Positions 27,972-33,611 of a stretch of 35,680 nt of DNA are shown here, piece after piece (positions within the stretch are counted from its first letter, which is position 1; every line of letters starts with the position of its first letter). The notes under the pieces were generated by a model. That model was not told the origin of the DNA. It saw only the letters and a program-made list of their open reading frames with translations, and did not search any database. The stretch is from NCBI GenBank assembly GCA_009838735.1, contig VXQZ01000053.1, forward strand, positions 1-35,680, written 5' to 3'. Position numbers and translations under genes: made by a program. The DNA comes from Chloroflexota bacterium. Lineage in GTDB: Bacteria > Chloroflexota > Dehalococcoidia > Bin125.

Positions 27972-28057
27972 GATTTCCAGCGCGTCGATGGCCCGACTCG
28001 GACTTGCAATCCGCTATCTTTGACGCGCAAACCAGAGCGTTGGTGAAGGGAACGATC

Positions 28058-29920
28058 ATGGCACTTGGCGGATTTGCAAATCATGTGGCGCGGGTCGATC
28101 TGACCGACCGCAGCGTGAGCTACGAAGGAATCAACGAAGACGACGCCCGCAAGTACATCGGCGCTCGTGGACTGGGTGTCAAGTACCTGCTCGACAACGG
28201 CCCAGAAACCGACCCGATGTCGGCCGACAACATGTTGGCCCTCGTCAACGGACCGATGACCGGCACCGAAGTGACGATGTCTGGACGCCTAGCGTTCGTG
28301 ACCAAGTCGCCGCTGACCGGCACCGTGACCGACTCGCACATGGGCGGATGGTCCGCGGCGCGCCTGCGCTGGGCCGGCTTCGACGCGATCCTGATCACAG
28401 GTAAGGCCGACTCGCCGGTCTACCTGGAGGTCGAGAACGGCGAGGTCGAGATCAAGGACGCCTCAGAAATCTGGGGCAAGGGCATCCATGACACCGTCGC
28501 GCATTTCGGCTCCGACAGCGGCAACAAGACCGACGTGTCGGTCATGTCGATCGGTCAGGCCGGCGAGAATGGCGTGCTGTTCGCCTCGTTCCTCAACGAG
28601 GACGACCGCGCGGCCGGTCGCGGCGGTACCGGCGCCGTGGCGGGGATGAAGAACCTCAAATGCGTCGTCGTGCGCGGCACTCGCGATGGCCGCTGGCGAC
28701 CGGAGCAGGGCGAGGCGCGGCAGAAGTTCCGCGAGGCGCAGGGACAGCACCTCAAGCTGATTATGGAGTCACCAGTCACGGCGCCGTCTTCCGTCAATGA
28801 CGACGGCACGCTCAAGGACGGTTCAGGAGCGCTCTCGGCGTTCGGGACCAATGTCTTGATGAACGCGGTCAACTCGATCGGTGGACTGGGCACCAAAAAT
28901 TCGCAGCTCACGCAGACCACCCCGGAAGCGGCAGACGCCGTCTCGGGCGAGACGATGCGCAACGAGTACCTGACGGCCGAGCCGACGTGTCACGCCTGCC
29001 CGGTCGCCTGCAAGAAGGAAGTCGAAATCACCGAGGGTCCGCACGCCGGCCTCAAGATGGAATCGTTCGAGTACGAGCCGGCCTGGTCGCTGGGAGCCAA
29101 CTGCGGTAACGACGACCCGGCCGTGATCGCCAAGGTCATTGACCAGTGCAACGACTACGGCATGGACGCGATCGAGATCGGCAACGTGATCTCGATGTAC
29201 ATGGAGGCCTCGGAGCGCGGCTATGTTGATACGCCGCTCGACTGGGGCGACGGCGCGGGCATGGTCCGCGTGACCGAGGAAATGGCAACGGGTTCGTCGT
29301 CGATCGGACAGACGCTGGGCCAGGGCACGGCCAAGGCCGCGGCCGCGTGGGGCCACTCCGAGATCTCGATGACGGTCAAGGGTCAGGCAGTGCCGGCCTA
29401 CGACCCGCGAGGGATCAAGGGCGAGGGTCTGGGCTACGCCACTTCGAACCGAGGCGCTTGCCACCTGCGCGGCTACACGCCGGCGTCCGAGTTGCTCGGC
29501 ATCCCGGTCAAGACCGACCCGCTCGACTGGGACGGCAAGGGTCCGCTGCTCAAGATCTTCCAGGACCTCCACGCCTTCTCCGACTCGCTCGACCTCTGCA
29601 AGTTCTCGGCCTTCGCGGTCGGCGCTCCCGAATACGCGGCGCTCTACGAGAACGTGGTCGGCCTGCCGATGTCCGAAGAGGACGTCATGGTCGCCGGCGA
29701 GCGGATCTACAACCTCGAGCGCCACTTCAACAACCTGGCCGGATTCGACGGCAGCGATGACTCACTGCCCGAGCGCTTCCTGACCGAACCGGCAAGCGGT
29801 CCGGCAGAAGGCCACATCTGCGAACTCGACCAGATGAAGGAGCAGTACTACGAGGCTCGCGGCTGGGACGACGGCGTCGTCGGCGAAGCCAAACTGCGCG
29901 AGCTCGAGATCATCTCGTAA
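28058..29920 (+). CDS. tungsten-containing aldehyde:ferredoxin oxidoreductase (AOR) family
   Basis: A 620-residue protein, the normal length for AOR (about 605). The N-terminal ~210 residues are the tungstopterin-binding domain (YIGARGLGVKYL, LVNGPMTGTEV, SPLTGTVTDSHMGG). The [4Fe-4S] ligands are CHACPVAC (Cys310, Cys313, Cys317) and a later Cys in SLDLCKFSAF (near 513). It oxidises aldehydes to acids with ferredoxin, in the cytosol. The ATG at 28058 has GAAGGGA 6 bases upstream; a longer frame (from 27701) runs inside the previous gene and is rejected. A MoaD-like gene follows, consistent with pterin-cofactor supply. Confidence 0.93.
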   Translation: MALGGFANHVARVDLTDRSVSYEGINEDDARKYIGARGLGVKYLLDNGPETDPMSADNMLALVNGPMTGTEVTMSGRLAFVTKSPLTGTVTDSHMGGWSAARLRWAGFDAILITGKADSPVYLEVENGEVEIKDASEIWGKGIHDTVAHFGSDSGNKTDVSVMSIGQAGENGVLFASFLNEDDRAAGRGGTGAVAGMKNLKCVVVRGTRDGRWRPEQGEARQKFREAQGQHLKLIMESPVTAPSSVNDDGTLKDGSGALSAFGTNVLMNAVNSIGGLGTKNSQLTQTTPEAADAVSGETMRNEYLTAEPTCHACPVACKKEVEITEGPHAGLKMESFEYEPAWSLGANCGNDDPAVIAKVIDQCNDYGMDAIEIGNVISMYMEASERGYVDTPLDWGDGAGMVRVTEEMATGSSSIGQTLGQGTAKAAAAWGHSEISMTVKGQAVPAYDPRGIKGEGLGYATSNRGACHLRGYTPASELLGIPVKTDPLDWDGKGPLLKIFQDLHAFSDSLDLCKFSAFAVGAPEYAALYENVVGLPMSEEDVMVAGERIYNLERHFNNLAGFDGSDDSLPERFLTEPASGPAEGHICELDQMKEQYYEARGWDDGVVGEAKLRELEIIS

Positions 29921-29983: not shown

Positions 29984-30256
29984 ATGCAAATCCGCTTCTA
30001 CGCAACGCTGCGGCCGCTCGTGGGCGGTCGCAGCGTTGACCTGATCGACCCGCCTGACACGGTCAGCGGCATCCTCGAACGCCTCGCCTCCGAGTACGAA
30101 GGCCTGCACGATCAGCTCTTCGACGAAGATGGCACGGTCCGTCGCTTCGTCGCGATCATGGTCGATGGCCGCGACATCCGACACATTGACGGCCTCGAAA
30201 GCCGCGTCAGCCCCGAGAGCGAACTGGACATCTTCCCGCCGGTGGCTGGCGGCTGA
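29984..30256 (+). CDS. MoaD/ThiS-family ubiquitin-like sulfur carrier
   Basis: 90 residues with a beta-grasp pattern and the C-terminal diglycine (PPVAGG) needed for adenylation and thiocarboxylation. The start MQIRFYATL and DIFPPVAGG end are typical of MoaD, which donates sulfur for the dithiolene of molybdopterin/tungstopterin. Directly after an AOR this implies a role in making that enzyme's cofactor. The ATG at 29984 has GAGGAG 3 bases upstream; the frame extends 7 codons further back. Confidence 0.88.
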   Translation: MQIRFYATLRPLVGGRSVDLIDPPDTVSGILERLASEYEGLHDQLFDEDGTVRRFVAIMVDGRDIRHIDGLESRVSPESELDIFPPVAGG

Positions 30257-30285
30257 TCCGGGCAGAGCTTCATACCATCGGTCGC

Positions 30286-30696
30286 ATGAGACTCAGGTTG
30301 CCAGGCCTGCTCGACGCTCGATCCTGGCCACTGGGCCTGCGCGCCTTTCTACTGGGTTTCACGCTGGTGGCAGTCGCGGTCGCCATCCTCGGCGCTGTGG
30401 CGACTCCGTGGCCGAGCGGAATTCCCGAGACCCTTCGCGTTCAAGTCGAAGCGTCCGGAGAAGCTCGGGGCCGATACCTGGCCCAGCAGGAGGCGAAGCA
30501 AAACGCCATCGATGAAGCACGCCAGCAAGCCGCCGCGAAGATCGCTGACCTGGTCGCGGTCGGCAGCTTTGACTCTGGATACCAACCCACATATCGCTAC
30601 GCCTGGAACGACGCCATCGAGCAACTCAGTCGGCAGGTGCCCAGACAGCGACTCCACGAGGAACAACACACCCAGTGGATCGAGCTGCTGCGATGA
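30286..30696 (+). CDS. small membrane-anchored protein, WNxA family member A
   Basis: 136 residues, no known family recognised. A short basic N-terminus (Arg2, Arg4, Arg12, Arg19) precedes one hydrophobic helix (about 20-38). The rest is helical and charged, with EARGRYLAQQEAKQNAIDEAR in the middle (residues 59-79) and the motif GYQPTYRYAWNDAIEQL at 98-114. The next three genes share the layout and the WN[DEA]A[IL][ED] motif. The first of four genes; its stop overlaps the next start as ATGA. Function unknown. Confidence 0.6.
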   Translation: MRLRLPGLLDARSWPLGLRAFLLGFTLVAVAVAILGAVATPWPSGIPETLRVQVEASGEARGRYLAQQEAKQNAIDEARQQAAAKIADLVAVGSFDSGYQPTYRYAWNDAIEQLSRQVPRQRLHEEQHTQWIELLR

Positions 30697-31178
30697 GCCT
30701 CGGAGCTCCGCTCACCCCTCCGCCACACGGTCCGCGCAATCTCGTCAGATTGGTCATGTGGGAGCCGCAGCATGAAGCGCTCAAGCGAACGCTGACCTGG
30801 TTCACAATCGGCGCAGCCACGGCCGCCTTGATGGGCTGGGCCCTGTTGGAAATCTTGCCCAGCACGATGCAGACATCCGCGAGCGATATCCGCGAGATCA
30901 CACAACAGGCGCTCAGCGCGGCCTACATCGCCGAATACGACGATGCCTATCCGGCCGCAGTGACCGAGCGACTCACATACGAGCTCGCGCAGCTCGTGGT
31001 CGGGTCCGACGCGGATGTCGAGTCAGCATGGGCTGAAGGCGTCCGCCGCGGATGGGCGGACGGTTGGAACGATGCCCTCGATGCCATGCGGGCAGCGTCA
31101 ACTGAAGCGAGCACGGCCACTGGCTCGTCGGAACTGAAGGCGTTGAACGCGGCGCCGCGCCGCGATCCCGTTCACTGA
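30693..31178 (+). CDS. small membrane-anchored protein, WNxA family member B
   Basis: 161 residues. A cytoplasmic N-terminus of ~34 residues rich in Pro and basic residues precedes a membrane helix (about 36-54). A helical domain follows with ALSAAYIAEYDDAYPAAV (residues 73-90) and the motif EGVRRGWADGWNDALDAM at 115-132 (Trp125-Asn126). The low-complexity tail is Ser/Thr/Ala-rich. The start ATG overlaps the previous stop by 4 bases (ATGA), supporting coupled translation. No known family recognised. Confidence 0.6.
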   Translation: MSLGAPLTPPPHGPRNLVRLVMWEPQHEALKRTLTWFTIGAATAALMGWALLEILPSTMQTSASDIREITQQALSAAYIAEYDDAYPAAVTERLTYELAQLVVGSDADVESAWAEGVRRGWADGWNDALDAMRAASTEASTATGSSELKALNAAPRRDPVH

Positions 31179-31222
31179 CCCGAATCGTCGACTGCTTGGA
31201 AACCGCTGGATAGGCTGACGCA

Positions 31223-31618
31223 ATGTCTGCCGTCCGAAGTCTCTGGAGATACGACCTCCCCCGTCAGACGCTGATCGCATTTCTGGCAGCCGTGGCAGTG
31301 ACGGCGGCGATCGGCTGGCTGATATCCGTTCTGGACCAGGTGACGCCGGAAGAGATCGCGAAGTCGGAGGTCCGCGGCGCGAGAGAGGGGCGGATTGACG
31401 GTTACGAGGCGGCGTTCGAGCGAGGTCGCCTCGACGGCGCCGGGCGCGCCGCGCTTGTACTGGATGAGTTGTTGAGATCGGGTGATTCCGTAGAGGGGTA
31501 TCGCACCGCATATGTTTTCGCCTGGAATGAAGCCATCGATACAGCTTTGGAACGAGCCAAGCGCGACAAGCTGGAGGTGAACTCGGCCTTCGACGCCTGG
31601 GAAGCGCTCAGGCGATGA
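31223..31618 (+). CDS. small membrane-anchored protein, WNxA family member C
   Basis: 131 residues: basic N-terminus, one membrane helix (about 16-36), then a charged helical domain with GAREGRIDGYEAAFERGRLD (52-71) and the motif EGYRTAYVFAWNEAIDTAL at 91-109 (Trp101-Asn102). It starts 44 bases after member B, and its stop overlaps the start of member D as ATGA. No known family recognised. Confidence 0.6.
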   Translation: MSAVRSLWRYDLPRQTLIAFLAAVAVTAAIGWLISVLDQVTPEEIAKSEVRGAREGRIDGYEAAFERGRLDGAGRAALVLDELLRSGDSVEGYRTAYVFAWNEAIDTALERAKRDKLEVNSAFDAWEALRR

Positions 31619-32073
31619 GCGAGCGACCACGCCGCCTCGAGGGCTGGGGCACCGAAGACCGGGAACGTTCCTGGTGGCGACGAGGCTACGACCCCATCGG
31701 CCGTCACACTATGGTGGCAGCGGTTCTGGGCGTTCTCATTGCGGCGCTGGTCGGCGCAACGGCGGATCCATTCAACCTTCGCACCGCAGACGACCTTCGC
31801 CGTGCGGAAGCATTGGCCTACGAAATCGCCTTTGCCGACGTTCACGACGCAGGGTATGCGGCGGGCGTTCCGTACGGCGAGGTCGAATACCTCGGAGAGG
31901 AAATCGTCGGCGAGGGAGCGGGCGAGGACAGCCTGTACGCCCAACAATTCCGTGTTGGCTGGACTGAGGGCTGGAACGCGGCGCTGGAGGCACTGCGAGC
32001 AGCCGCCGTCGCCGAGGGGCTGCCGCCGGAATACACGGAGTTTCGAGTCCTGGATTCGTTGCCGGTCCGTTGA
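31615..32073 (+). CDS. small membrane-anchored protein, WNxA family member D
   Basis: 152 residues. An Arg/Trp-rich N-terminus of ~30 residues precedes a membrane helix (about 33-50). An acidic helical domain follows with ALAYEIAFADVHDAGYAAGV (66-85) and the motif QFRVGWTEGWNAALEAL at 111-127 (Trp120-Asn121). The start overlaps the previous stop by 4 bases. It is the last of the four-gene run; 65 bases then separate it from the next gene. No known family recognised. Confidence 0.6.
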   Translation: MSERPRRLEGWGTEDRERSWWRRGYDPIGRHTMVAAVLGVLIAALVGATADPFNLRTADDLRRAEALAYEIAFADVHDAGYAAGVPYGEVEYLGEEIVGEGAGEDSLYAQQFRVGWTEGWNAALEALRAAAVAEGLPPEYTEFRVLDSLPVR

Positions 32074-32138: not shown

Positions 32139-33611
32139 ATGACGCGGATCCTGACTCTCGGTGCGAGCGGCTACGTCGGCGGTCATCTGGCACCGAGGCT
32201 GGCCTCCGAGGGCTTCGAAGTCCGAGCCGCGGCGCGGCGGATCGAAGCGCTCCGCGCTCGAGGTTGGGGCAATATCGAGTGTGTGCACGCCGACGCCCTT
32301 GATTCCGATTCCCTGCGTGAAGTCCTTGAGGGAGTCGATGTCGCCTACTACCTGGTCCACTCAATGGCCTCGGGCAGCAAGTTCTCTGAACTGGACCGGC
32401 GTGCGGCGGCCAACTTTCGTGATGCGGCCGCCGACCAGGGACTCGCGCGAATCATCTATCTCGGCGGCATTCAGCCAACTGACGGCGCCTCTCCCCACCT
32501 GGCGTCGCGCATGGAGACCGGAGAAGTGTTGCGCGCCGGGCCAGTGCCCGTCACCGAACTGCGGGCTGGAATCGTCGTCGGCCCAGGCTCGGCCGCGTTC
32601 GAAGTGATTCGAGACCTCGTCTACCACCTGCCGCTGATGCTGGCGCCGCGCTGGGTGAGTTCGCGCAGTCAACCAATTGGCCTGGAAGATCTGCTCGATT
32701 ATCTGGTTGGTCTCTTGCGTCTCGACGACGATGGCGAACACCACGTGTACGACGCCGTCGGACCCGAAACCCTGAGCTACGGCGACCTGCTGCGCCAGTT
32801 CGGACAGGTCGTGGGCCGGACAGTTCGGATTGTGCCGCTACCGGTGCTGACCCCGAGGCTATCGTCGTACTGGCTCGATCTCGTCACCGCGGTACCGGCG
32901 AGTATCGCCCGTCCGTTGATCGACGGCCTCAAACACGATCTGATCTCGGAACGTGCCAACGAACTCCACGACCTGATTCCAATCCGCCAACGCTCCTATC
33001 GGGATGCAGTCAGACAGGCGATGGCTGAAGAGGAGTCAGCGGCGCTCACGGTCCGCTGGACCGAGGGTGGATTCCGCTATCGCCGCCAGCGCCATGATGT
33101 GTCCTGGTACGACAAATCAGTCCGAGTATCCGTGCACAGCGAGCGCCCGGCCGAGGAAGTCTGGCGCGATATCAGCTCGATCGGCGCCGATCGAGGCTGG
33201 TACTTCGCGACCTGGATCTGGAAGCTGCGCGGCCTGATCGATCGTGCGATCGGCGGCGTCGGCATGCGACGCGGCCGCCGGCACCCGACCGACCTGCGAG
33301 TAGACGATCCGCTCGACTTCTGGCGCGTCGCCGCCGTCGAGCCGGGCCGCAGCCTGACCCTGGTCGCCGAGATGAAGCTGCCCGGATCCGCGGTGCTTGA
33401 GCTGTCGGTCGAAGCTGAAGGCGCCGGCAGTGTGGCAACCCTTCAGGCCCACTTTCATCCCGCAGGCGTGGCGGGGTTGCTCTACTGGTACGGCCTGTGG
33501 CCGATCCACATGGTGATGTTCCGACGCCTGGCCGAGGTATTGGCGACCGGCCCTACGCGCCCCGCAGGCGAGGATCGAGCACGTCGCGCAGCGCGTCGCC
33601 AAGCAGATTGA
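32139..33611 (+). CDS. NAD(P)H-binding protein with C-terminal DUF2867
   Basis: 490 residues. An atypical short-chain dehydrogenase N-half (~1-250) has GASGYVGGHL (8-17), YYLVHSMASG and IIYLGGIQPT, as in YbjT-like proteins. A DUF2867 C-half (~320-470) has VHSERPAEEVWRDI, GWYFATWIWKLRG and DLRVDDPLDFWRV. Members are linked to redox or lipid metabolism but have no firm function. Its last 59 bases overlap the convergent ABC permease gene on the other strand; either the stop at 33611 or the permease end at 33553 would be unusual for unrelated genes, but both frames look genuine. Confidence 0.85.
   Translation: MTRILTLGASGYVGGHLAPRLASEGFEVRAAARRIEALRARGWGNIECVHADALDSDSLREVLEGVDVAYYLVHSMASGSKFSELDRRAAANFRDAAADQGLARIIYLGGIQPTDGASPHLASRMETGEVLRAGPVPVTELRAGIVVGPGSAAFEVIRDLVYHLPLMLAPRWVSSRSQPIGLEDLLDYLVGLLRLDDDGEHHVYDAVGPETLSYGDLLRQFGQVVGRTVRIVPLPVLTPRLSSYWLDLVTAVPASIARPLIDGLKHDLISERANELHDLIPIRQRSYRDAVRQAMAEEESAALTVRWTEGGFRYRRQRHDVSWYDKSVRVSVHSERPAEEVWRDISSIGADRGWYFATWIWKLRGLIDRAIGGVGMRRGRRHPTDLRVDDPLDFWRVAAVEPGRSLTLVAEMKLPGSAVLELSVEAEGAGSVATLQAHFHPAGVAGLLYWYGLWPIHMVMFRRLAEVLATGPTRPAGEDRARRAARRQAD

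Follow-up and report, generated by a model that had tools for sequence, protein, structure and literature searches.

The window, that is, the whole stretch of 35,680 nucleotides analysed here, carries four adjacent genes encoding proteins of 136, 161, 131 and 152 residues, just as an earlier note on this DNA had described them. Judged by sequence comparison, these genes are two tandem copies of a cassette composed of a type A and a type B gene, an alpha pair (A1 and B1) being followed by a core pair (A2 and B2). The genes, their neighbours and the features discussed below are as follows, all on the forward (+) strand.

28040..29920, +, aldehyde:ferredoxin oxidoreductase (AOR; PF01314, PF02730), upstream neighbour
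29984..30256, +, MoaD/SAMP1-like ubiquitin-fold protein, upstream neighbour
30273..30278, +, TACCAT, promoter-like but weaker, located seven bases upstream of the start codon of A1
30286..30696, +, A1 (136 aa), the alpha-pair protein of type A, with its membrane helix at about residues 20-40
30457..30531, +, deca-GX3-like ridge (small-xxx) with seven repeats in A1, residues 58-82
30604..30615, +, WNDA motif of A1 (W107)
30693..30696, +, ATGA overlap of the A1 stop and B1 start
30693..31178, +, B1 (161 aa), the alpha-pair protein of type B, with its membrane helix at about residues 36-56 containing GAATAALMG
31065..31076, +, WNDA motif of B1 (W125)
31211..31216, +, TAGGCT, promoter -10-like, located six bases upstream of the start codon of A2, a leaderless spacing
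31223..31618, +, A2 (131 aa), the core-pair protein of type A, with its membrane helix at about residues 15-37
31376..31450, +, deca-GX3-like ridge (small-xxx) with seven repeats in A2, residues 52-76
31523..31534, +, WNEA motif of A2 (W101)
31615..31618, +, ATGA overlap of the A2 stop and B2 start
31615..32073, +, B2 (152 aa), the core-pair protein of type B, with its membrane helix at about residues 27-49 containing GVLIAALVG
31972..31983, +, WNAA motif of B2 (W120)
32139..33611, +, SDR with a C-terminal DUF2867, downstream neighbour

The four ORFs are real and coding. Against their closest orthologues, the dN/dS values were 0.19 (A) and 0.22 (B) for the first pair (compared with genome G001) and 0.21 (A) and 0.09 (B) for the second (compared with G011), from which we conclude that all four ORFs are under purifying selection; the range over all comparisons made was 0.04-0.29. 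The ATGA overlaps at the first and third junctions and the WN[DEA]A motif common to the four proteins, both pointed out in the earlier note, were also found. The motif was said there to end each protein, but its Trp residue is located 29-36 residues before the C-terminus.

The A–B pair and its relatives

A profile search of the fetched loci retrieved 58 full-length members, which constitute 29 pairs in 16 genomes. Conserved gene order in relatives, suggested in the earlier note as a check, was indeed observed: the short A gene precedes the long B gene in all of the 29 complete pairs, and in 28 of them the A stop and the B start overlap by four bases (ATGA, or GTGA in two), the exception having a gap of 1 nt. 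No intact A or B gene on its own was found at the loci searched. In a joint tree, furthermore, A forms one clade and B another with support of 100 each; the tree was built by a quick method, which gave warnings of long branches for some rows. When clustered at 45% identity, A and B fell into nearly identical types (alpha, beta, gamma, core and singletons), so that the type of A predicts that of B. The separate clades and the matching types suggest that the split of A and B came first and that the later duplications copied the A–B pair as a whole. The four genes are therefore not the equal sisters that they had been taken for; genes 1 and 3 are of type A, and genes 2 and 4 are of type B.

The distance matrices of A and B are closely correlated (Mantel r 0.97, with 0/5000 permutations as high), and this evolution in lockstep suggests that the two proteins probably work as a joined pair; correlated trees are, however, also expected from the shared descent of linked genes, and direct A–B contact is hence what we infer. 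A single complete pair only was found in 7/16 loci, one of these being cut by a contig edge, so that a four-protein complex is not required, and we rejected it as the basic unit. Co-production and a likely hetero-oligomer, both proposed in the earlier note, stand, with two A–B pairs instead of a set of four as the arrangement.

Composition-adjusted BLAST relates gene 2 to gene 4 (E 4e-10) and gene 1 to gene 3 (E 7e-9), and the similarity between genes 3 and 4 is weak (E 0.012). When the A profile was aligned with the B profile by hhalign, a probability of 97.3 and an E-value of 2.3e-11 were obtained, the membrane helix being placed on the membrane helix and the WN motif on the WN motif. By these comparisons A and B are old paralogs of each other, in line with the old duplication suggested in the earlier note from the low overall identity. 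Alternatively, the likeness might have arisen by low-complexity convergence among Ala/Gly/Arg/Glu-rich membrane proteins of a GC-rich genome, in which case A and B would not be a family; indeed, unrelated proteins that combine a membrane helix with an Ala-rich stretch do give weak profile matches (E 1e-3 to 1e-5). We regard convergence as scarcely credible, because the E-values above were obtained despite the composition adjustment or between whole profiles, W and N are invariant in A and glycines are invariant in B, and the members occupy a single conserved locus in 16 genomes; for the A–A and B–B likeness, convergence is already contradicted.

In agreement with the earlier note, which had recognised no known family, none of the A and B proteins matched Pfam or NCBIfam above the curated cut-offs, and PHROGs, PADLOC and PDB sequence profiles gave nothing significant. 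The lowest E-values for a family assignment cover membrane helices (e.g., 0.00018 for a lysyl-tRNA synthetase membrane region, 3/21 B proteins). Foldseek returned no matches for the A model and a best E-value of 3.4 for the B model, and a second look with VIA-align gave Z <= 3.4, which is meaningless for helical models. No family member was found in the viral contigs searched, and literature searches found no papers dealing with AOR in SAR202 or with duplicated pairs of a comparable kind. The A/B family is accordingly undescribed in the libraries searched, and it is taxon-restricted.

Indeed, the family is present in all 15 genomes searched from the genus of the window and in one from a sister genus, whereas it is absent from four other genomes (three genera) of the same taxonomic family. 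The B profile detected no further convincing relative in 393 genomes of the class, and the A profile detected none in 400 genomes of the phylum beyond weak half-length matches; those in other families of the phylum (E 7e-5 to 9e-4) were not accepted as relatives, nor was a 394-aa protein outside the locus, whose common part is the membrane helix and an Ala-rich stretch alone. In a contig scan, a single B protein (P0002) as the query gave no loci, and nine core B sequences gave 14. Among the named records that match, all of them MAGs of Dehalococcoidia or Chloroflexi, bin125 (MPNM) originates from the sponge Aplysina aerophoba (PMC5649159). The MAG prefixes RHO and IRC, judging from the names, would correspond to Rhopaloeides odorabile and Ircinia ramosa, both among the sponges of another sampling study (PMC8163846). 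Among the genomes searched, the family is thus restricted to one Chloroflexota group that includes sponge-derived genomes.

Predicted anatomy of the proteins

Every member has one membrane helix with no indication of a second one, and the charge bias predicts the N-terminus to be inside in A (29/29) and B (28/29). The single-chain AlphaFold2 models of A2 (pLDDT 73, pTM 0.30) and B2 (pLDDT 71, pTM 0.41), both of moderate confidence, consist of a membrane helix and a helical hairpin, and the WN motif lies within the second long ectodomain helix in both models, and hence inside the predicted structure. The layout given in the earlier note (a basic N-terminus, a single membrane helix and a helical soluble domain) matches the one hydrophobic helix with a basic N-side in each of the four proteins and the hairpins modelled for genes 3 and 4. 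A and B are thus predicted to be bitopic membrane proteins with an N-in/C-out topology and a helical-hairpin ectodomain containing the WN motif, while the N-terminal helices may instead be cleaved signal peptides and not anchors.

In A, every fourth residue of the helix after the membrane is Gly or Ala (GAREGRIDGYEAAFERGRLDGAGRA in A2), and this small-xxx ridge comprises 7.2 repeats on average, with p <= 0.006 versus shuffles in 26/29 proteins; also, all 29 A proteins have a C-terminal W-x-x-L-x-[RKQ]. In B, [GAS]xxx[GAS]xxxG is found in the membrane helix of 22/29 proteins versus 2.4 expected, these being counts over related sequences, and the small-xxx chain in the ectodomain of core B is not beyond chance.

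Locus context and cassette turnover

Wherever the contig reaches, the genes are arranged in the order of AOR–moaD–(A–B)n with n from 1 to 3, and the gap between moaD and the first A gene is often a few bases or an overlap; the contig of G012 starts at its sole pair. Downstream lie two Opp-type permeases in the convergent orientation, and either the SDR or the permeases are missing here in some genomes. Two sister genera (g2 and g5) are equipped with orthologous AOR and MoaD (AOR 65-73% identical) without the pairs, and the link to AOR is therefore positional only. In these pair-less genera, MoaD is followed with an ATGA overlap by, or is fused to, a domain of ~85 residues (L096:1381-1647, L098:1652-2203), for which no Pfam match was found.

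TA[CG]GCT-N6-start precedes 13/14 core A genes, which suggests that the second pair can be transcribed alone, with a putative leaderless transcript starting from this promoter-like element. In the case of alpha, TANNNT-N7-start was found before 3/6 A genes. The SDR gene of the window has a similar CATACT-N6-ATG, and leaderless spacing may be general in the group.

When the presence of the alpha pair was mapped on the AOR tree, five changes were needed. In genome G010, the 3' end of moaD occurs twice and flanks the first A–B pair (L036:9800-9943 and L036:10828-11097; 133/144 nt identical), which suggests that this pair was inserted by recombination in moaD. Genome G003 retains a decayed beta-type pair (L029:727-1233), in which the A reading frame has an internal TAG; a short ORF in this remnant resembles A up to the WN motif and B beyond it, as though a deletion had joined the two there. 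Between the core pair and the SDR gene, G010 alone has a gene with an AIPR domain (L036:6664-7887; PF10592, E 1.5e-17); the name of this domain refers to abortive-infection phage resistance, and PADLOC gave no match to the gene. The beta and core pairs of G014 are 913 bases apart, with no clear gene in the gap (L040:7979-8891).

A proposed A–B complex and comparison with known systems

The explanation that we narrowly favour as a whole is that one A–B gene pair would specify one obligate membrane heterodimer, or a small A/B hetero-oligomer, which would serve as an extracytoplasmic scaffold or adaptor. Its parts are not equally secure: A and B quite probably form a complex, which we infer to be a dimer, and the role as a scaffold or adaptor, argued by analogy, is put forward tentatively as somewhat less than an even chance. 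In this mechanism, the four-base overlap would supply A and B in balanced amounts at the same place, both proteins would insert N-in/C-out, and their membrane helices would pack via small residues, most B having GxxxAxxxG there. In the ectodomain, A would pack on B through the small-xxx face of its first helix as a putative interface, with the WN helices lining the A–B joint, and the cassette types alpha, beta, gamma and core might each engage different partners.

Alternatively, A and B might be separate homo-oligomers encoded in a shared operon, their lockstep divergence reflecting linkage and joint duplication. Linked genes indeed share their history, so that the matrix correlation alone cannot separate co-inheritance from contact, and the strong small-xxx ridge of A, which the core B ectodomain lacks, could make A–A dimers. 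We nonetheless consider separate homo-oligomers unlikely, given that neither gene was found alone in an intact form and that the short overlap is kept in 28/29 pairs; also, A and B are paralogous, as heterodimer subunits often are. The position of the pairs, directly downstream of AOR–moaD and often within a few bases of it, raises another alternative, in which they are accessory subunits of this operon, either anchoring the tungsten enzyme to the membrane or serving as adaptors in its maturation, somewhat as Yae1–Lto1 does for Rli1. AOR is an iron-sulfur enzyme. Pairs of deca-GX3 proteins, furthermore, can act as iron-sulfur adaptors (PMC4523923). Against such subunits, however, AOR and MoaD orthologues do without the pair in two sister genera, the predicted ectodomain is across the membrane from a cytosolic AOR, a promoter-like element of its own precedes the core pair, and the number of pairs varies from one to three while AOR–moaD is constant. 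We thus find this alternative improbable, even more so than the homo-oligomers, and it is to the same slight degree that we would expect AOR or MoaD to be the partner of the A–B pair.

Returning to the A–B heterodimer, its evolution may be read, on balance doubtfully, as that of a taxon-restricted paired membrane family that arose in one Chloroflexota branch, split once into obligate A and B, and gained and lost cassettes at one locus, resulting in sets of heterodimers that are insulated from one another and have different extracytoplasmic targets. The locus would be a small natural example of heterodimer duplication, in which one gene gave A and B and the pair was duplicated several times with the partners in register. 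Partner specificity between paralogous pairs, such as whether A1 joins B2, is directly testable with these small proteins, which define a new membrane protein family of no known function from an uncultured Chloroflexota branch.

Several known systems resemble the A–B pair. Like A and B, WXG100/ESAT-6-type proteins are encoded by adjacent paired genes and form helical hairpins, but WXG100 proteins have no membrane helix and carry W-x-G in the hairpin turn, whereas A and B all have one membrane helix and place W-N inside the second ectodomain helix; profile comparison gave an E-value of only 0.29, to esxR, and we rejected membership in WXG100/ESX. FliH of bacterial flagellar export, a dimer with a GX3-type repeat helix (PMC4523923), shares the GX3 repeats, but the A–B locus has no flagellar neighbours and A/B have the membrane helix. 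Membership in FliH was also rejected, TIGR03825 giving E 0.086 and 12.4 bits versus a cut-off of 148.9 for P0002 (a B protein) only.

A likeness in design is also seen to Yae1–Lto1 of eukaryotes (PF09811, Yae1_N), which likewise comprises two small proteins with a GX3-repeat helix and a Trp residue near the C-terminus; in Yae1–Lto1, heterodimer formation is mediated by the deca-GX3 motifs, and the Trp residue is functionally important (PMC4523923). A and B differ in having the membrane helix, the C-terminal Trp of A is six residues from the end and not terminal (29/29), and 7-8 repeats (Gly or Ala) are present in most A, with core B at chance, instead of the expected ~ten GX3 repeats in both partners. 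The Yae1_N profile gave a best E-value of 0.083 in 1/19 A proteins and matched zero B proteins; with this insignificant match, the non-terminal Trp and the short, one-sided repeats, we do not place A/B in the Yae1/Lto1 family. Yae1–Lto1 may nonetheless serve as a precedent for the role of the ridge in A–B, as an analogy of the working principle.
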